DNA from: Branchiostoma floridae
Lineage: Eukaryota; Chordata; Leptocardii; Amphioxiformes; Branchiostomatidae
Direction: 5' to 3'
Length of the DNA: 64,000 nt
NCBI RefSeq assembly: GCF_000003815.2
Contig: NC_049996.1
Location: forward strand, 8,953,310 to 9,017,309
Shown: positions 441-21,334 of the stretch, one piece after another
Numbering within the stretch: position 1 is the stretch's first letter
Layout: each line of letters opens with the position of its first letter
Made by a program: the position numbers and the translations under genes
The notes under the pieces: model-generated
Databases searched by the model: none
Told to the model about the DNA's origin: nothing
The model's input: only the letters and a program-made list of their open reading frames with translations

Positions 441-1159
441 GCTACAGTGAAATAAAAAACACCGCAAAAAGTCCATGTTATCTGTTGATATGTTAAATTT
501 TTCAGGCCATTCTTGAGCAGCATGTTGAATAAAGTCTTTATTTGGCTCCTTATTATCAACAAAATTGTTTAAAGTTTTGAAATGAGTCAAACATTCTTCT
601 GGGTTAATGGCATTATCATCCTTCTGTTGAACATTATCTTCCTGTTACAGTGATTTGATTTCCCTCCAAGATTATATTTTTGTGGATTTTCCTTACTAAG
701 TTTTCTGAGATTGTTTAATTGTATTTCTTTGAAGAGTCTTTTCTCTGTCTTGATTTTCTTCTTGTACAATTTCGGATTGCAGAAGTATACGTGGCGAACA
801 TCAAGTTTCCACAAGCACTGAAAACGGAGTGGCAAATTGTTTTATTTTGTGTTTAAGAGATGCACATGAATGGTTGAACCATGGTTTACTTTTCTTCTTT
901 CTTTTCTTGTTATTGTTGTGGGTAATTTTACGCAGACATTTATCAGCTACATGTGTGATTTAAAAGTTAAAGTTAAAGTTGCCCGTACATCAGTAACAGA
1001 TGCGTAGGGGTGGCGCCCATCTCCATTTCTGTAGCCCTTGGGCCACACATGTGAAAGCCACTACAGCAGGGGGCTGGTCTGCTGGTAGTGATGTGTGTTT
1101 AACTTCCATACTCTTCCTCATTCCTCAAGCAGAGAAGAGCTATGTCCAGTATCAGGGTG

Positions 1160-1805
1160 AAGTGCACGAAGTTAGGGTGTAAGAAGTTGTACGAAGTTGT
1201 ACTAAGTTACAACCGTTTCCCACTGGCTTTGATGCTATATCGGGAGTCACAGATGACGTCAAAACATTTATTGGATGACGTAATCTAACTTCGTACAGTA
1301 GGCAGGGTAGGGTGTCAAGTGTACGAACTTGTCCGAAGTTGTGCAAAGTTACGTGACGTCATCTAACTTCGTACAGTAGGCAGGGTAGGGCGGCATGTGT
1401 GCGAATTTGTCCTAAGTTGTACAAAGTTACGTGACGTCATCTAACTTCGGACAGTGGGCAGGGTAGGTCAACAAGTGTGCGAAGTTGTCCTAAGTTGTGC
1501 AAAGTTACGTGACGTCATCTAACTTTGGACAGTGGGCAGGGTAGGTCAACAAGTGTGCGAAGTTGTCCTAAGTTGTGCAAAGTTACGTGACGTCATCTAA
1601 CTTTGGACAGTGGGCAGGGTAGGTCAACAAGTGTGCGAAGTTGTCCTAAGTTGTGCAAAGTTACGTGACGTCATCTAACTTTGGACAGTGGGCAGGGTAG
1701 GTCAACAAGTGTGCGAAGTTGTCCTAAGTTGTGCAAAGTTACGTGACGTCATCTAACTCTGGACAGTGGGCAGGGTAGGGCGGCATGTGTACGAATTTGT
1801 CCAAA
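1160..1805. repeat. Subterminal tandem array, ~78-bp unit
   Basis: Six or so copies of a unit of about 78 bp. Each contains GTGACGTCATCTAACTT and GTCCTAAGTTGTGCAAAGTT. Each unit carries the palindrome TGACGTCA (CRE/ATF core). The same motifs recur in reverse orientation at the other end of the element. Confidence 0.9.
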
Positions 1806-2167
1806 GTTAATTAATACATAGTAAAAACTTATATATGTGTAAATAAGATACACACCACTCACGCATATAAACAAATAAAATATAGATGCACATTAATTAG
1901 CACAAAATCAATGTTCATGCATTGTAAAAAATTTCATTTATTTCACTTTTTTTTGTCTTTTATTTCTGCTCTTAACGTTTGTTTTAACAATGCACACAAA
2001 ATAATTTAAGCTCACTCTTAATATTATATTTCCCTTTTTTTACGTCACTTCTAAATACAAGTACCTGAAAACATCTCCCCTATCTATTTATAAACTACAT
2101 GTATTGCAGTCATCTTTCACTACTTTGTATCATAAGAAGTAGTAGTTGTTATGTTATTCCTTGTAAT

Positions 2168-3054
2168 TTAACAATTAATTGAAGTACTTCCACCATTTAG
2201 TACATAAGTAAACCCAGCAGACGGACTACCACTGTCCGTATGGTCTTTCCGCAACTTCGTGTAAACATCAGTCACAAGTTCTTGAATCCATTTACAGATA
2301 GTAGATTTCCCAGCGCCTGCCAAGACAACAGGTAAATGTCATTTTGATCCCCGCTAATAGATGTTTAAAAAGAATAGAACAAATGAAATAAAAGCAGCCG
2401 TGGCGCAATACAGAGATTGAAAAACGACACCATTCTACGAACGCATTCCAGGTTCGAATTAAAAAAAAAACACCTGAGCAAATGACGTAAATGTCTGTTG
2501 GTGACGTTAAGCAAAAGAATGTTCGACAAGGTATGGTTCTAGAAATGACGGTTGTAAATTTTGAACATATAACGTTATATCTACATTGAATCAAACGTTT
2601 GATTTGAAACAATAAAAAAGGTGTTTAGAAGTAAATCTACCTGTTGGCAGACAGATGGCTGTCCACAGAAGAACATTTTCCCTCCATTTGGTGTCAGGTG
2701 GAGAGACTTGTGCATGGCTTACAGCAAAAGCCGCGACCGTGATAAGGCTATATAAAACAGCCACCGTTGGCACGCACAAAACAGATGCAACAGCACAACA
2801 TCCCTGTGAAGAATAAGACAAATCTTAATAAAGATAAGTAATCTGCATTCTGATAAAAAATATGTTGTTTTGTTAGATGTAACTTCTAAAGAATAGAAGA
2901 TTTATGAATCAAAAGTCAGAACTCAAAACATATCAAGGTGCGATTAATACGACTAACCCACCTGAACAAGTTCTTCCGGAAAATCCTTCCAGTCAAACTC
3001 GACTTTCCAGGACGAATGGAGATCTGTAGCCTTCAAAGATTTACTGCACGACAT
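2168..3054 (-). CDS. Spliced P-loop protein (DUF3987-like N-terminus) carried by the TIR element
   Basis: Three minus-strand exons join in frame with GT-AG introns: 3054-2962 (31 codons from ATG), 2803-2641, and 2316-2168 ending in TAA. They encode 134 aa. The first exon ends around the motif DWKDFPEEL. The second has a hydrophobic helix (VPTVAVLYSLITVAAF), then WRENVLLWTAICLPT. The intron splits the Walker A motif, which reads LPTGAGKST after splicing. This order (DW..FP, helix, tryptophan-rich strand, P-loop) resembles the start of DUF3987 primase/helicase-like proteins as I know the family; that is recollection, not a search. The product lacks Walker B and the rest of an ATPase fold, so it is truncated or has further exons I cannot see. 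All three exons lie inside the transposon. Possible roles are a captured host domain or an element-encoded replication helper. Confidence 0.62.
2397..2590. repeat. Direct repeat copy A (intron 2 of the P-loop gene)
   Basis: About 190 bp shared with 3118-3320 in the same orientation. Markers are AAAAACGACACC, GAACGCATTCC, ACACCTGAG and GGTTCTAGAAATGAC. Copy B lies just upstream of the minus-strand ATG at 3054, so the presumed promoter-side sequence of the gene is duplicated inside its last intron. Confidence 0.8.
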
Positions 3055-3117
3055 GATATGATATAATATTGTCCGTAAATCCCCCGTTAAAAAAGTCTAT
3101 TTCGTCAAAGACACGGA

Positions 3118-3320
3118 CTAAAAAGTAGCCGTGGCGACTTCATCGCCACACGGTTTCAAACTGTTAGACTGAAAAACGACACCGTTCGAAGAACGCATTC
3201 CGGTTTCGAATTACGAAAACACCTGAGTTAGTGACGTAAACGTCAGATTGTGACGTCTAAGAAGATGAGAACATTAGAAGAAAGGTTCTAGAAATGACAG
3301 TTGAGACATTTGAACGTAAC
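3118..3320. repeat. Direct repeat copy B (5' flank of the P-loop gene)
   Basis: Partner of 2397-2590. It lies 64 bp or more upstream of the minus-strand start codon. It could hold the promoter, but no core motif is convincing. Confidence 0.75.
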
Positions 3321-3409
3321 ACAGAAAACTTGTAGACGCGTAGTGGAGTATATATATCGCCAAAGTCAAGCTAGGCGACATCTTCCTAGGAATACGCGAC
3401 CTGATCAGT

Positions 3410-3660
3410 ACACCCGGCTGACTGTCCAAAGTTTAGATGACGTCATGGTTAGCGTGACGTCATAACTTCGGACAAGTTCGTACAACTCCGTACACCACCC
3501 GGCTGACTGTCCAAAGTTTAGATGACGTCATGGTTAGCGTGACGTCATAACTTCGGACAAGTTCGTACAACTCCGTACACCACCCGGCTGACTGTCCAAA
3601 GTTTAGATGACGTCATAACTTCGGACAAGTTCGTACAACTTTGGACAACTTCAGACATCT
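3410..3660. repeat. Right subterminal tandem array, ~84-bp unit
   Basis: Three copies of a unit containing GGCTGACTGTCCAAAGTTTA, GATGACGTCATGG and ACTTCGGACAAGTTCGTACA. The third copy is shortened. The motifs are reverse complements of those in the left array, so the two arrays make the element's ends complex inverted repeats. Confidence 0.88.
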
Positions 3661-3850
3661 AACTTAACTTAGGACAACTTCGTGCATTTCACCCTGATAC
3701 TGGACATGGGTGGCAGAGAAATCAGCATGTACCATTTTTAAAGTCTTTGGTATGACTCGGCCGGGGATCGAACTCACGACCTACCGAATGCAAGGCGAAC
3801 ACTCTAACCACTAGGCCATTGCACCGGTTGATTATATCACATGTGTGATT

Positions 3851-5075
3851 ATATCAGAAAATTCTTTTACTGCATTGTCTACGTCACAAAATGACATAGC
3901 AGTAAAGTTTTGTAAGATTTTTTTTATATCGAAGGATCCTGTAATGCCTCTGTAAATTTGAGTTTGGAGTTATCATCCCAAATGTACTTAGTTGGTAATG
4001 GGTTTGTTGGGGCTTTAGCTTGTTTTACATAAGGTGAATAGTTAGTTGAGATAGAGCATCAATTAAACAGTAGTCTGTTGGTTTAGTATTGTTTGTGATT
4101 GATTGAAAAACAAAGGAGCATTGGTCAAAACAAGTCATATTCCCTTACCACCCAAGCCACAAAGCACAACATTGGGAAGCAGTGAAATTTTCTTGCATAC
4201 AGTCTGTTGGTTTAGTATTGTTTGTGACTGATTGAAAAACAAGCTTGGCCTTTTCTGGCTGGGAAAGTTCGTCTTGTCATTGAAGGGAAACTTGAGAATT
4301 CTCACCTACCTGTCTAGGCCTAATTTCTGACAAGAAAGACTTCAGACAGTGTAACGATCTCAATCGTTGAATTATTGTGAGAGTTTATTTTAGCAATAGA
4401 AGGGAGAGTTGAATCCAATGAGCTTTTATAAAACTTTAAAAGCTTTAATATAAAAGCTCCTTGCTAGAAAAACCTCACGGCCCACTGAATAATATCAACA
4501 TACGTGTGGCTTCTTTGCTGCGTGGGACACTGTAGTGATCAGGAGACCCCGGGACTAAATGGGCAGCCATAAGCATATCGTTAGTTTATTTACGCATTTT
4601 GATCGCAAGGTATACTAGTGCCCAAAATTTTAATAGCATATAACGACAAGAATGGCGTCGCTATATCTTTTCGATGATAAAACTCCTTAGTCTACCATCG
4701 ATATTTCAAAACAGGGCTATAATCTGCTACACATATTGAATTCCTAATTTACCATATTGTTCGCTACTTTTGAGTTACATATGTCTGCATATTAAGAGGG
4801 AATTTCGTTTGTGAACAAAAATCTTCAGCATGTGACTGAAAACAAAGGAACAAAATGGCACCCAAGCTATCCCATCAGTCATTGCGGTAGCGGGTGGTAT
4901 TAAAGATTTGAATGATTTTTATATATGTGTATGTAAGTTTTAAATTTTAGAAATGATTCCGGCCATGCAATTCATCAAGCCTCTGTTAAATCCATCCCTG
5001 TGGAGAGGCTAAAAATTAAAAAAAATTGATGACATAGAGATCATTAACCTAGCTAAGTAGTAAAATCCAAGACTG
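3851..5075. other. Intergenic, repeats only
   Basis: Holds a short direct duplication (CAGTCTGTTGGTTTAGTATT at about 4071 and 4200) and the right arm of the large inverted repeat (4811-4920). The rest is AT-rich sequence in which I see no gene. Confidence 0.6.
4811..4920 (-). repeat. Right arm of the inverted repeat pair
   Basis: Reverse complement of 38-145, with a few substitutions. Confidence 0.8.
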
Positions 5076-5076
5076 T

Positions 5077-5660
5077 ATCGATGAATCCCACGGCCGATCG
5101 CCAGTATATTAGGGACGGAAGTTGCGTTGGTTTCATCAGTAGATCGATGAATCTCACGGCCGATCGCCAGTATAAGGGACGGAAGTTGCGTTGGTTTCAT
5201 CAGTAGATCGATGAATCTCACGGCCGATCGCCAGTATTAGGGCCGGAAGTGGCGTTGGAGTCATCAGTAGATCGATGAATCTCACGGCCGATCGCCAGTA
5301 TAAGGGACGGAAGTGGCGTTGGGTTCATCAGTAGATCGATGAATCCCACGGCCGATCGCCAGTATAAGGGACGGAAGTGGCGTTGGATTCATCCGTAGAT
5401 CGATGAATCCCACGGCCGATCGCCAGTATTAGGGATGGAAGTGGCGTTGGATTCATCCGTAGATCGATGAATCTCACGGCCGATCGCCAGTATTAGGGAC
5501 GGAAGTGGCGTTGGATTCATCAGTAGATCGATGAATCTCACGGCCGATCGCCAGTATTAGGGCCGGAAGTGGCGTTGGACTCATCAGTAGATCGATGAAT
5601 CTCACGGCCGATCGCCAGTATTAGGGCCGGAAGTGGCGTTGGATTCATCAGTAGATCGAT
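5077..5660. repeat. 64-bp minisatellite, ~9 copies
   Basis: Head-to-tail units starting AGATCGATGAATCTCACGGC, with junctions at 5141, 5205, 5269 and so on. Copies differ at a few sites (ataagggac/attagggcc, ttgcg/tggcg). The unit contains CGGCCGATCG, and units join through GATC. It ends in three copies of the perfect palindrome GAATTCCACAGCTGTGGAAT within 5680-5780. The short ORFs across it are products of the repeat, not genes. Confidence 0.95.
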
Positions 5661-5929
5661 GAATCTCACAGCACTATTTATGAATTCCACAGCTGTGGAA
5701 TTCATCATCTGATGAATATCACAGCTGTGGAATTCATCATCTAAGTGATGAATATCACAGCTGTGGAATTCATCAATCCACGGTCTTCAGATATAGCGAA
5801 TTACATTCTCTTCTAATATCTGCTGAAATGTTTCTGAAATGCAACTGTTAGTAACTGTTTAGTTACTTCCAGTCGTAGTCCAGTACTGATATTTTGCTAG
5901 GGGAATGTTAGATGCCTTCTTTATGTACA

Positions 5930-18810: not shown

Positions 18811-21334
18811 CTTAGTGTGTTTGTGTGTGTCCCGAACTGTGTGTGTTTGTAATGTATGTGTTTGCATCTATGTGTGTGTGCCTATGTTCGTGTGCATGTA
18901 CATATCATTAAATGTATTTTATTTCCTCTTTCCGGTTCTAGGAAAGAAGAGAAATCAAGAAAAAAGAGCAGGAGGAGAGAAGACAAAAGAAATTAGCGAA
19001 GAAGCTCGGGAAGACGGCCAATGGGGACGTTTTATAGCCATGTAGCTGCTGTAGTCGGAGATGTAGTCATGAAGAGAGACATGTAAATGTCACAATATGT
19101 ATAATTATTATCATTTTTCAATAAAGCTTTAACAAAAAAAACACAGGTGAGTTGATGAAGGTTAGACATCCAGGTAATAAGATACACCAAAAAGCAGTTG
19201 CTCAATATATTCAACTGGATATGATTTTAGAAATGGTCAGAAGTTTCAGACAACCATCCGGTTGATATGCAAAAGAGATCTAGTTGATCAATTCACAACT
19301 AGGATATAAAAACTCCTAAAAACTACAATACAGGTGCTGAGCACTGGGCTGATACAGACTACCATTCAGGACCTTTCCATCTTGCCCGAGACCATTGGCT
19401 CAATTCTTTCACTTGCTCATCACACACAATGAACATGTTTAATTTAAGTAAGAATAAGCAGAGCAGTAGTTTCTTACGCTAGAACATTGTGAAGGTTTAC
19501 CATTTTATTTTTGGTTGCAAATGTTACCTTTATTTAGTTTCTGGTTGCATATTTGTGATGTTTTACAAATGATGCAACAAAAACTCATGTCTCCTTCTCC
19601 AAAGGTTCTACAGGATCGCCCCGAGCTCCTGACCTTGCCTGACCCTGACCCCGGCCCTGTGTCTATCACTGATGAAATGTTGGCTCAGGTAATTAAACAG
19701 CGCAACTTTTTCATCAGAGTTAAACTGTAACTTTTAAAGGAAGGTTTTAAAGTTTAACACGTTACTTGCCACACGCAATATATATAGCACTCACCAACAA
19801 GCTTTCAGTCAGTCCTCTGATCCTTTTCGATTCAATCCATTGCTGACATCACACATTACAGGGTCGGCAGAGTATCAACGGATTAGTTCTAGGCCAAACG
19901 CCCTGCCTTTAGTTGCTGCCTTTTATATCTCGGAAGTGAAGCAACACAAAGTCCGGACAGTTCTTGAATGGGAGACTACCCAAGGATGACCGGCTGTAGC
20001 CGGACCAAAAAAGTCCACAAAATTGTCTTTCAGGAGCGACATAAAATGGGGGTCCCATGCTCAAGGACTTAGGAGGAGCCTAGACCATGTTAATCAGCCT
20101 CATTACTCAACATATTGGGTACCTACTGGCTGCAAATACTCCCGATATTTTTAGTATTATTATTGTTATCTAGGTAGGTCGTGAGTTCGATCCCCGGCCG
20201 AGTCACACCAAAGACTTAAAAAATGGTACATGCTGCTTTCTCTGCTTAGCACTCAGCATTCGGGAAAGAGTATGGAAGTTGAACACAGTCACCACTACCA
20301 GTGGACTAGCCCCCTGCTGTAGTGATTGCGTTGTGTGGCCCAGGGCTAAGGAAACAGAGATAGGCACCTCCCTATGCGCCTTTAGGTGCGGTAAGGGTTT
20401 AACTTTAACGTAACTTTAATTGTTATCTTTATCTCCTCAGTTGGTGTCGCTTGGGTTTGACCCTGAGATGTCCAGACGGGCGCTGCAGTCTTGCCAGGGG
20501 ATGGCACAGAGGGCCATCGACATGCTGCTGCAGAGCGGAGGCATTCTGCCAGAGGGCTCTCCTGCAAATGGCAGTGCCTCAACATCATCCAGCTCTTCCA
20601 CATCCTCCTCTTCTGCCACTCCATCTTCATCATCATCATCATCAGGTACTGCATTGTTGTTAGGCCAAACTAACTTCATGTTGAACCAAGCTGAGTCTAC
20701 CAGCAAAATTTGCCCCTCATAATAAAGGAAATAGCATTTTCAGAGAGTCTAGATTTCACAATTTTCCCAGGGAACATATCCCCATCCCATGCCCCCCCCC
20801 CCCCTCTACCTAGGTCGCACCTTTGACAGGATTTCCATTCAAAATCTAGGTGACGGAAAAAAATTCAGGCTGGTTAGAACACTGATATGGGTTGGGGTAG
20901 GTCGGGAGAAGTTTGAGAGTGTTCAGAAAATTCAAACGTGGCTGACCCAAAAAGCGACAGTGAAGCACCCTGACTTCGTGGCGTCCTCGTAACACTGCGG
21001 CATCAAATTTTTACTCCTTGAATGTTGGTAGTTGCTTCATCTTATTATGTAGAAAAGTGCCCACAAATTTGACTTTGATAATTGAAGTTCTACAACCCTG
21101 AATCAGGCTAATGTTTCTCAGATTGTCATCAACATTTCTTATGTCCTCCACCTTACTCCAGATGCCTCCCCAGCTAAATCTCCGGAGGAGCTCCGAAGGG
21201 AGAGGGAAGCGTACGAGGAACTTGCCTCAGATCTGGCAGACCACGAGGAAGACTACTTGGACTTGACCTTGGAAGAGGAGTCGACCTTCCTTCAAGAGTA
21301 TAGGGCGCTCCTTGAGTCAACACTGTCGTTCTGA
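6589..21334 (+). CDS. NUB1: NUB1-like NEDD8 ultimate buster, UBL and UBA domains
   Basis: NUB1 delivers NEDD8 and FAT10 conjugates to the proteasome. Exons: 6589-6711, 7238-7396, 7882-7952, 8121-8191, 14609-14767, 15245-15443, 15987-16173, 16561-16668, 17299-17451, 18942-(19034), 19605-19688, 20441-20645, 21162-21334; phases agree throughout except around 18942-19605. The protein opens MSSIHTEEVQRQL, like the NUB1 N-terminus. A ubiquitin-like domain follows in exons 3-5, then the conserved IADQTGRALQIP and LDIVWCYLCL helices. Next come UBA1 (MGFSGAEARLGLRAC), a basic coiled linker (ERREIKKKEQEERRQ), UBA3 (LVSLGFDPEMSRRAL), a poly-Ser stretch and the acidic tail DHEEDYLDLTLEEE. About 590 aa are accounted for; human NUB1 has 615. 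Most of UBA2 is missing: exon 19605 starts with what looks like its last helix (VLQDRPELL). An assembly fault near the N gap or true loss could explain this. Confidence 0.9.
8530..8590. repeat. First half of a split repeat (second half 14500-14590)
   Basis: Matches the first half of the 300-440 repeat up to GTGGCCACTTCACT. The second half resumes at about 14505 (CCGCAAACTTAAAACCAC and ACATTTTTCCATGGCAATAA). About 5.9 kb of intron 4 therefore appears to have been inserted into this repeat. Confidence 0.6.
8682..9661 (+). repeat. ~980-bp direct repeat, copy 1 (uninterrupted)
   Basis: Nearly identical to 12267-14147 once the 892-bp insertion in that copy is removed. It begins CATTTGACAAGACAGGTGG and ends TTAGACCTTAGTAAGACGC. 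At 9122-9140 it reads GCAGATGTATATGCCATAT, the empty site of that insertion. No long ORF; not TG..CA bounded, so not an obvious LTR. The part around 9235 (TCCAGTCAGAAGCTCTGAGG) belongs to a repeat also seen at 15090-15190 and 17825-17925. Confidence 0.92.
9662..12266. other. Intron 4 sequence between the two direct repeats
   Basis: No gene is supported. Fragments of a SINE are visible: a head-like piece at 11120-11185 (TTAGGGTGTTTGGCCTAGGA) and a tail at 11545-11700 (GATGGGCTCCACCTTCTAAT) matching the SINE at 63757-63978. The rest is AT-rich. Confidence 0.5.
12267..14147 (+). repeat. ~980-bp direct repeat, copy 2 (interrupted)
   Basis: Second copy of 8682-9661, lying 3.6 kb downstream in the same intron. 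It contains an 892-bp insertion at 12715-13606. Outside that insertion only scattered substitutions and small indels separate the copies, so the duplication is recent. Confidence 0.92.
12715..13606. mobile_element. 892-bp non-autonomous DNA transposon, TA target site
   Basis: Terminal inverted repeats of 24 bp with one mismatch, sharing CATTGGCATAATACCGGTC, lie at both ends. TA is present on each side (12713-12714 and 13607-13608), and the paralogous empty site at about 9130 has a single TA. A second internal ACCGGTATAAGG-type motif at 13566 makes the right end partly repeated. There is no transposase ORF. TA duplication suggests mobilisation by a Tc1/mariner-like or related transposase. Confidence 0.93.
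14304..14479. mobile_element. MITE with CAACAAGCTTTC inverted ends
   Basis: Left end CAACAAGCTTTCTGTCAATC and right end CAGATGAAAGCTTGTTG are inverted. The centre has TGCTGACGTCACGCTTTCG and GGTCACGTGACATA. Relatives are at 19795-19865 (partial), 58995-59135 in a TIE intron, and, more weakly, 36500-36580. Confidence 0.75.
15055..15195. repeat. Interspersed repeat (AGAAGCTCTGAGGAAGGTGT family)
   Basis: The segment around CAGAAGCTCTGAGGAAGGTG followed by GTGTACAAGAATTC recurs at 9230-9320, 13700-13800 and 17825-17930. All of these lie in NUB1 introns. Confidence 0.7.
15460..15860 (+). repeat. SINE-body fragment
   Basis: Contains TGGTGGATCTTTAACATG, CATTTAATGTCCTATCCGTG and GCCTTTCCCAAAGGTACAAC, all also present in the SINE at 23147-23665. 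A reverse-complement relative occupies 39480-39720. It lies within NUB1 intron 6. Confidence 0.65.
17003..17105 (+). pseudogene. Truncated copy A of the NUB1 UBA1 exon
   Basis: Preceded by an acceptor (CTGTACAG), it encodes ADAFLRQLQVDESKVTELLT and continues to ETRLYK. It then diverges from the true exon (GLRACS...) and runs into a stop at 17120-17122. It is one of three tandem units spaced 150 and 146 bp apart. It could be spliced in only with loss of the second half of UBA1. Confidence 0.85.
17153..17255 (+). pseudogene. Truncated copy B of the NUB1 UBA1 exon
   Basis: Same structure as copy A: acceptor, ADAFLRQLQVDESKLTELMT, then EPRLYK and an intron-like tail repeating TCTGAACAAA...CTTATCCCATGCT. 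The complete exon follows at 17299-17451 behind a similar acceptor (CTATACAG). The repeated unit thus covers part of the intron, the acceptor and two thirds of the exon. Confidence 0.85.
17487..17702. repeat. Palindromic element beside the assembly gap
   Basis: Arms TATCAAGCCAACAGATTCAA and ACCATCTGTTGGCTTGATA are inverted. The outer part has GGTATCCTATATC against GGATATAGGTTATCC, and it ends in ATAAAGGTGAGCTAGAG. A related start occurs at 17996-18100, running into the N gap, and a relative lies at 28482-28693. Confidence 0.75.
18101..18741. other. Assembly gap (641 N)
   Basis: Unknown bases. It lies in the NUB1 intron between the UBA1 exon and the linker exon, flanked by a palindromic repeat and a (TG)n tract (18749-18803) that probably caused the break. 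Long ORFs reported across it are artefacts. Confidence 1.
18942..19037 (+). other. NUB1 linker exon, open into a stop: possible alternative 3' end
   Basis: After the acceptor TTCTAG this reads ERREIKKKEQEERRQ...KTANGDVL and then TAG at 19035-19037. AATAAA is at 19120-19125, and an A-rich run follows. Charge and position match the linker after UBA1 in NUB1. No good donor is seen before the stop, apart from a weak GT at 19029. Either a short isoform ends here, lacking UBA3, or the donor is non-canonical. Confidence 0.6.
19925..20170 (+). mobile_element. 5S rRNA-derived SINE fragment
   Basis: Contains TATCTCGGAAGTGAAGCAA and TTCTTGAATGGGAGACTACC. These follow the box A and box C parts of the 5S rRNA internal promoter in correct order and spacing. 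The 5S-like part is degraded and continues into a body with ATAAAATGGGGGTCCCATGC; a similar body is at 45650-45845. This is the layout of SINE3-type elements. It is not a functional 5S gene. Confidence 0.72.
20172..20410 (+). mobile_element. tRNA-derived SINE, 5' truncated
   Basis: Same family as the split SINE at 961-3838. It runs from GTCGTGAGTTCGATCCCCGG through ATGGTACATGCTGCTTTCTC to a TTTAACTTTAACG tail. It is useful as the uninterrupted reference for that insertion. It lies in the NUB1 intron before the UBA3 exon. Confidence 0.85.
20680..20890. repeat. Interspersed repeat, copy of 5930-6235
   Basis: Shares CTACCAGCAAAATTTGCC and CACCTTTGACAGGAT. It includes a C13 run at about 20791. 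It lies in the last NUB1 intron. Confidence 0.65.

Follow-up and report, generated by a model that had tools for sequence, protein, structure and literature searches.

An internally deleted DNA transposon carrying a DUF3987-type gene in Branchiostoma floridae

The 64,000 nucleotides of amphioxus DNA analysed here (hereafter the window; Branchiostoma floridae, contig NC_049996.1, positions 8,953,310 to 9,017,309 of the forward strand) contain at 1137-3712 a DNA transposon with terminal inverted repeats (TIRs) and three exons of a P-loop ATPase gene of the DUF3987 family. This element is likely to be a non-autonomous member, derived by internal deletion, of a family of cut-and-paste type; the autonomous form of this family probably carries a CxC5-type gene together with a DUF3987 gene. 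More tentatively, and with our judgement leaning slightly against it, the family may be an undescribed lineage of animal transposons with two conserved proteins and helicase-assisted transposition: a CxC5-type zinc-cluster and chromo-like protein that would be, or would partner, the transposase, and a DUF3987 ATPase that would derive from plasmid-type replication machinery. The element had been noticed in an earlier reading made without database searches (hereafter the sequence-only reading).

The window element, its copies and its parent

The two ends carry TIRs of 32 nt (1142-1173 on the plus strand and 3676-3707 on the minus strand) that are 97% complementary, and GCAGAGAA is found on both sides as an 8-bp target-site duplication (1129-1136 and 3713-3720), as the sequence-only reading had stated. 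That reading also placed the insertion in a short interspersed nuclear element (SINE). A second copy of this SINE, at about 20150-20430 of the window, crosses the joined site with a single GCAGAGAA and thus represents the empty site; therefore, the 8-bp duplication is real. The proposed bounds of 1137-3712 hold for the element, but its terminal five base pairs are not the same at the two ends (GAGCT at 1137-1141 on the plus strand; CACCC, read inward, at 3708-3712 on the minus strand). Each pentamer is constant among the fetched pairs, the exception being the two inner ends of an adjacent pair in L013, and the end sequences of the family are GAGCTATGTCCAG and CACCCATGTCCAG. The subterminal arrays were also recovered: a 78-bp unit repeated 6.8 times at 1276-1808 (plus strand), with the palindrome TGACGTCA recurring at 78-bp intervals between 1354 and 1744, and an 85-bp unit repeated 2.4 times at 3411-3616 (plus strand). 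The element contains 12 copies of this palindrome, and the rest of the window (61.4 kb) has 8.

Copies were sought in one assembly of 513 Mb, the same genome as the window. A search with the whole element returned three full-length copies at 97-100%, one of them the element itself, besides numerous partial matches; further copies were 96-98% identical. The 20-base TIR core, with at most 2 mismatches, matched at 172 sites versus 3 for a reversed-pattern control, which rules out TIRs arising by chance; copies with the same ends, for which the sequence-only reading had proposed a search, therefore do exist. Greedy pairing of ends yielded 62 pairs, window copy included, spanning 51 bp to 7 kb, with sizes most often of 1.0-1.5 kb (17) and 2.5-3.0 kb (18). 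For this pairing, left and right ends were listed separately and left ends with 2 mismatches were excluded, while left end C6:22109667 and right ends C5:27628540 and C7:3985119 were added. Two pairs at C11:13.08-13.09 Mb (6,975 bp and 3,974 bp) are probably mis-joined, two adjacent elements lying there. There remained 17 unpaired left and 11 unpaired right ends, among which the DNA was read for seven left (C6:22037566, C6:22109667, C7:7428541, C9:548021, C9:2102516, C11:13090448 and C12:14323482) and two right ends (C9:2105060 and C163:2475). Perfect 8-bp duplications, all different, flank 20 of 25 fetched end pairs (window copy excluded); those without one are both pairs of L013 (adjacent elements), L014, L018 and L039. 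Multiple copies, TIRs, target duplications of fixed length and an empty site, by which TIR DNA transposons are recognised, are hence all present, and the element is apparently young and recently amplified.

The gene lies on the minus strand and comprises exon 1 (3054-2962, with its ATG at 3054), exon 2 (2803-2641) and exon 3 (2316-2168), which is truncated by an internal deletion. Both introns are bounded by GT..AG, their phases are 0 and 1, and the spliced product has 134 aa. Intron 2 splits the Walker A motif between LPT and GAGKST, exon 3 beginning within this motif. The spliced product matches DUF3987 (PF13148) with an E-value of 4e-6 and 26.7 bits, just under the cut-off of 27, over profile positions 7-72 of 364, whereas neither exons 1-2 alone nor exon 3 alone gave a DUF3987 match in the Pfam scan. 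The match therefore needs the splice and supports it independently. Hence, the DUF3987-like gene split in Walker A that the sequence-only reading had proposed is, from its agreeing phases and this P-loop-family match, real but cut short. For the 134-aa product, no significant match was found in PHROGs (best E 0.08) or among PDB sequences (best E 1.3). As that reading also held, the window copy has no transposase.

A longer form had been supposed to lie elsewhere in the genome. It was found on C5 (L033): 6,235 bp with the same ends as the window element, flanked by the duplication AAAACCTC. Its gene has eight exons, and all seven introns are bounded by GT..AG with agreeing phases, the fourth donor lying one base after the printed boundary. 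Read through, with X placed over a frame lesion, it matches DUF3987 with an E-value of 1.8e-20 and 73.9 bits, well over the cut-off of 27 (best of two stretches, profile positions 134-357 of 364). Comparison with this copy places at 2208-2210 of the window the junction of a deletion of about 3.2 kb, marked by a 3-bp microhomology (GTA), which removed the second half of the parent's gene. At a second point, 3403-3427, the window element lacks a stretch of about 0.54 kb that the 6.2-kb copy has. The GTA junction is common to 11 distinct fetched copies, window included (L001-L008, L016, L025 and L027); therefore, one deletion derivative was amplified. By this comparison, the window copy is a defective, amplified internal-deletion derivative. 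The 134-aa product as first read is right for its DUF3987 part and wrong as a picture of the parent protein for its last 12 residues (YVLNGGSTSINC), which are foreign to that protein and are read from beyond the deletion.

A candidate CxC5-type partner and the past of the DUF3987 gene

A second gene is suggested by the long copy on C6 (L029). Its element sequence runs to 4070, gives way to an open frame of CxC5 type and resumes at 4699-5016. The frame runs in the opposite direction to the DUF3987 gene and matches, below the cut-off, the Pfam family CxC5 (PF18718), described as a cysteine cluster associated with KDZ transposases. Read by eye, the frames downstream of it contain a cysteine cluster, which includes LDGNAKNHR, as well as a chromo-like segment. 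The genome matches of the piece named exon C are C6 itself, C13:4895536 and C18:5167835; furthermore, L043 on C12 (14.17 Mb), which had been fetched for its DUF3987 exons, has exons C and D too. At three of the four known loci (C6, C12:14.17 Mb and C18:5.16 Mb), exon C has DUF3987 exons no more than 8 kb away. At the fourth, on C13, no DUF3987 exon was found, and exon C is preceded at about 1.5 kb by a CxC5 relic. Two further CxC5 matches on C12 are 25 and 32 kb from DUF3987 loci. Since CxC5 exons are found inside one long copy and, at two other loci, close to DUF3987 relatives, the autonomous form probably has both genes. As a separate observation, C12:14.14-14.35 Mb holds four loci of CxC5 or DUF3987 type in about 210 kb.

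The sequence-only reading had offered a captured host gene as one origin of the P-loop gene, which the genome matches do not support. Exon 3, the P-loop exon, has 19 listed matches (22 candidates scored), all 19 inside TIR pairs as judged by eye against the list of end pairs, and no host donor was found among them. Fourteen of these 19 end at residue 38, and the exon is whole only in the C5 copy. A six-frame search of the genome with PF13148 found no gene, a search that misses exon-split genes, including this one. Outside the genome, the DUF3987 gene had no match among 50,697 phage records and one weak match among 72,556 plasmids, a Calothrix 'Primase 2' (29% over 189 aa). Peptide patterns of exons 1-3, by which close relatives only are detectable, had no match in viral contigs and prokaryote genomes. 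Recent transfer from bacteria or viruses is thus not supported.

Diverged DUF3987 relatives are present in the amphioxus genome at C18:5160317 (73% DNA identity), C12:14.17 Mb (71% DNA identity) and C12:17320217 (47% aa identity). In exon 7, L033 and the C18 relative (L048) differ at 6, 3 and 15 first, second and third codon positions over 40 codons (dN 0.13, dS 0.73), which suggests some past constraint on the gene. At the diverged loci L043 and L044 no convincing TIRs were found, although one L043 site scored 29 versus a shuffle maximum of 22. DUF3987 has been predicted to be a family of helicases involved in mobile-element replication and present in the primase proteins of such elements (PMC5862659). 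Judged by titles and the opening lines of abstracts, the papers found that mention DUF3987 all dealt with bacteria, archaea or phages, and those on transposons, amphioxus, helicases and primases described no such element.

Various points weigh against a family with these two genes. The long copies on C5, C6 and C12 each carry lesions: the frame lesion of L033, in exon 4, is absent from the C6 and C12 copies, which have other lesions and lack exons 1-3. The CxC5 match reaches 23.7 bits (E 5.6e-5), under the Pfam cut-off of 26.9, and comes from C6, the only locus whose CxC5 frame was scanned with Pfam; the frames downstream of it match no significant Pfam family. The count of linked loci is partly biased, C6 being the source of the query and the C12 locus having been fetched for DUF3987, so that the genome search alone adds one locus with DUF3987 nearby (C18) and one without (C13). 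Moreover, no right end with at most 3 mismatches was found for the C6 copy in the 20 kb fetched, and its CxC5 exons could have been brought in by rearrangement. The strand order of the two genes also varies, being the same at C12 and C18 and opposite at C6. No catalytic transposase domain was found in the frames scanned, and the KDZ domain (PF18758) had no match among selected open frames from L029, L030 and L040. According to the available part of a report on Pleurotus, CxC5/CxC6 genes lie there away from KDZ transposases and are tied by the authors to Copia retrotransposons (PMC7641404); therefore, CxC5 alone is no proof of KDZ. As for constraint, the dN/dS estimate is based on 40 codons, and intron 7 of L033 and L048 is 84.6% identical over 311 columns, no more diverged than exon 7 (80%). 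Codon positions differ little among the long copies, and the contrast between exons and introns is weak.

Proposed mechanism, rival explanations and known systems

In the scheme that we favour, the internal deletion would have arisen when repair of the gap left by excision was interrupted. A transposase provided in trans, either the CxC5-type protein itself or a protein joined to it, would bind the subterminal arrays and the TIRs, make 8-bp staggered cuts and move the short copies. By analogy with the helicase-like portion of plasmid primases, the DUF3987 ATPase might unwind or remodel the DNA of the element while it transposes or afterwards. A single transposase gene is what usually defines the cut-and-paste transposons of eukaryotes. 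For an element with the whole DUF3987 gene, we found no description of this combination of parts. If the scheme is true, an intron-bearing ATPase gene of plasmid-replication type would connect animal transposons with the replication machinery of mobile elements in prokaryotes, and would offer a concrete system for studying the role of an ATPase in transposition. The CxC5 linkage would also offer a starting point for work on the orphan CxC5/CxC6 repeated genes in fungi. Since young copies with clean duplications are at hand, activity is directly testable.

An unrelated transposase of hAT or P type might instead mobilise the family in trans, the DUF3987 and CxC5 genes being passengers. P elements also make 8-bp duplications. 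Such duplications are common to hAT and Zisupton elements in the available part of one source (PMC12730594), and the elements that were read yielded no transposase, no genome search aimed at hAT or P transposases having been made. However, no element with these ends longer than about 6.2 kb was reliably paired, and we regard this source of the transposase as unlikely, though not negligible. There is only a slim chance that the 6.2-kb element is itself complete, with the DUF3987 protein as its sole protein and host nucleases making the cuts. Its 6,235 bp, the largest copy reliably paired, show no second gene, and none of the four frames scanned, among five of at least 80 aa outside the DUF3987 gene, matches a transposase. 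Nevertheless, CxC5 exons lie inside a long copy, 8-bp duplications are typical of DDE transposases, and DUF3987 is not known to include a nuclease.

The DUF3987 gene could also be cargo without a role in transposition, taken up by an otherwise ordinary transposon from the host or from a gene gained horizontally, as in Pack-TYPE elements. This would be in line with the ankyrin/SOCS-box pieces carried by the same TIR family and with their free 319-aa relative on C1 (see below). Yet none of the listed P-loop exon matches is free, the PF13148 search found no gene (within the limit on exon-split genes given above), the parent has all eight exons rather than a fragment, and the diverged relatives show some constraint and CxC5 linkage; cargo is hence rather improbable. 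Slimmer still than the case for a complete 6.2-kb element is that for a repressor function of the truncated 134-aa product, as in P elements, of which the KP product is a repressor. The two cases are alike in that an internal-deletion copy keeping the ends and first exons was amplified, and six of eight copies read in one piece (window and L002-L008) keep an open frame. In contrast to KP, the gene lost here is a DUF3987 ATPase and not the P transposase, and the stump bears no sign of selection. Among these eight copies of 2.6-2.7 kb (the rows of L016, L025, L026, L027 and L033, partial or stitched, being excluded), 23 of 405 codon sites vary (7, 6 and 10 at the three positions) versus 26 of 482 intron sites. 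Moreover, two copies (L003 and L004) have an in-frame stop, and in a third (L008) a Walker A glycine is changed. Selection keeping the stump was rejected on these grounds; it is most likely a useless relic that keeps Walker A without the rest of the ATPase.

Compared with known systems, a family with both CxC5-type and DUF3987 genes resembles Zisupton and KDZ elements in part. The amphioxus element has the 8-bp duplications known from Zisupton (PMC12730594, as far as its available part goes) and, like these elements, TIRs. Pfam associates CxC-type cysteine clusters with KDZ transposases, the CxC5 match here being under cut-off. Unlike them, the amphioxus family carries a DUF3987 gene, with no KDZ catalytic domain in the selected frames scanned. 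A repeated insert of 6,792 bp in Pleurotus ostreatus, which contains small repeat units as well as an open frame for CxC5/CxC6, is another parallel; 44 to nearly 60 CxC5/CxC6 regions are reported per genome. These inserts are nevertheless fungal and tied to Copia, and neither a DUF3987 gene nor inverted-repeat ends are mentioned in the available part of that report (PMC7641404). The primase families PrimQH and All3500, from mobile elements of bacteria and archaea, share the helicase-like Pfam domain DUF3987, to judge from the accessible text (PMC5862659), whereas the amphioxus protein lacks the N-terminal primase half and is encoded by eight exons in a eukaryotic TIR element. Finally, Pack-TYPE elements (Pack-MULE, Pack-CACTA) are matched by amphioxus sister elements with the same ends that carry a host-like gene fragment; they are described from plants in the part of the source available (PMC8903248), whereas the host here is an animal and no host copy of the P-loop gene was found.

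Sister elements and other features

Three sister elements with the same TIRs (L036, L041 and L047) contain a fragment of an ankyrin/SOCS-box gene, and the second gene of these elements, considered as a candidate transposase, is ruled out as such. This fragment has 17 matches at 14 loci: seven lie inside TIR pairs, four beside one recognised end and two without a recognised end. One match, on C1 (L046:945-1901), is a free frame of 319 aa in which Ank and SOCS_box domains occur. DNA identity between this frame and the captured pieces is 69-75%, most differences falling at third codon positions (28, 21 and 52 differences at the three positions for L036), so that the C1 frame may be related to the donor without being the donor itself. 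Here a DNA transposon has captured part of a gene in an animal genome. A captured host gene with a donor elsewhere, the mark of Pack-TYPE elements, is hence found in the sister elements and not in the window element. Other interiors are diverse: by eye, that of L034 is a long interspersed nuclear element (LINE) and L036 has a nested piggyBac-like miniature inverted-repeat transposable element (MITE), and that of L035 consists of unread N. Near-empty elements also exist, with ends 51, 257 and 288 bp apart (C7:3985091-3985141, C10:11575657-11575913 and C17:16998271-16998558, respectively).

Intron 4 of L033 (query 2365-2449) contains a piece of 60-80 bp with 27 listed genome matches at 87-98%, that is, a small dispersed repeat. 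Within the window element, a direct repeat of about 180 bp is present in intron 2 (2390-2569, plus strand) and upstream of exon 1 (3121-3318, plus strand), the two copies being about 77% alike. It recurs between the CxC5-gene frames of the C6 copy (L029 4699-4945) and looks tRNA-like by eye, without an Rfam match in the window stretch. The Rfam search of window 900-4000 returned no RNA family, and such a family inside the element was rejected on this basis.

Around the SINE and the element, inverted repeats of 109 nt at 37-145 and 4812-4920 are 97% complementary and 4,666 nt apart. They are probably the ends of a larger, nested TIR element, although no clear target duplication was seen at this pair. 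Beyond them, a tandem array at 5077-5669 consists of a 64-bp unit in 9.2 copies with 95% matches.

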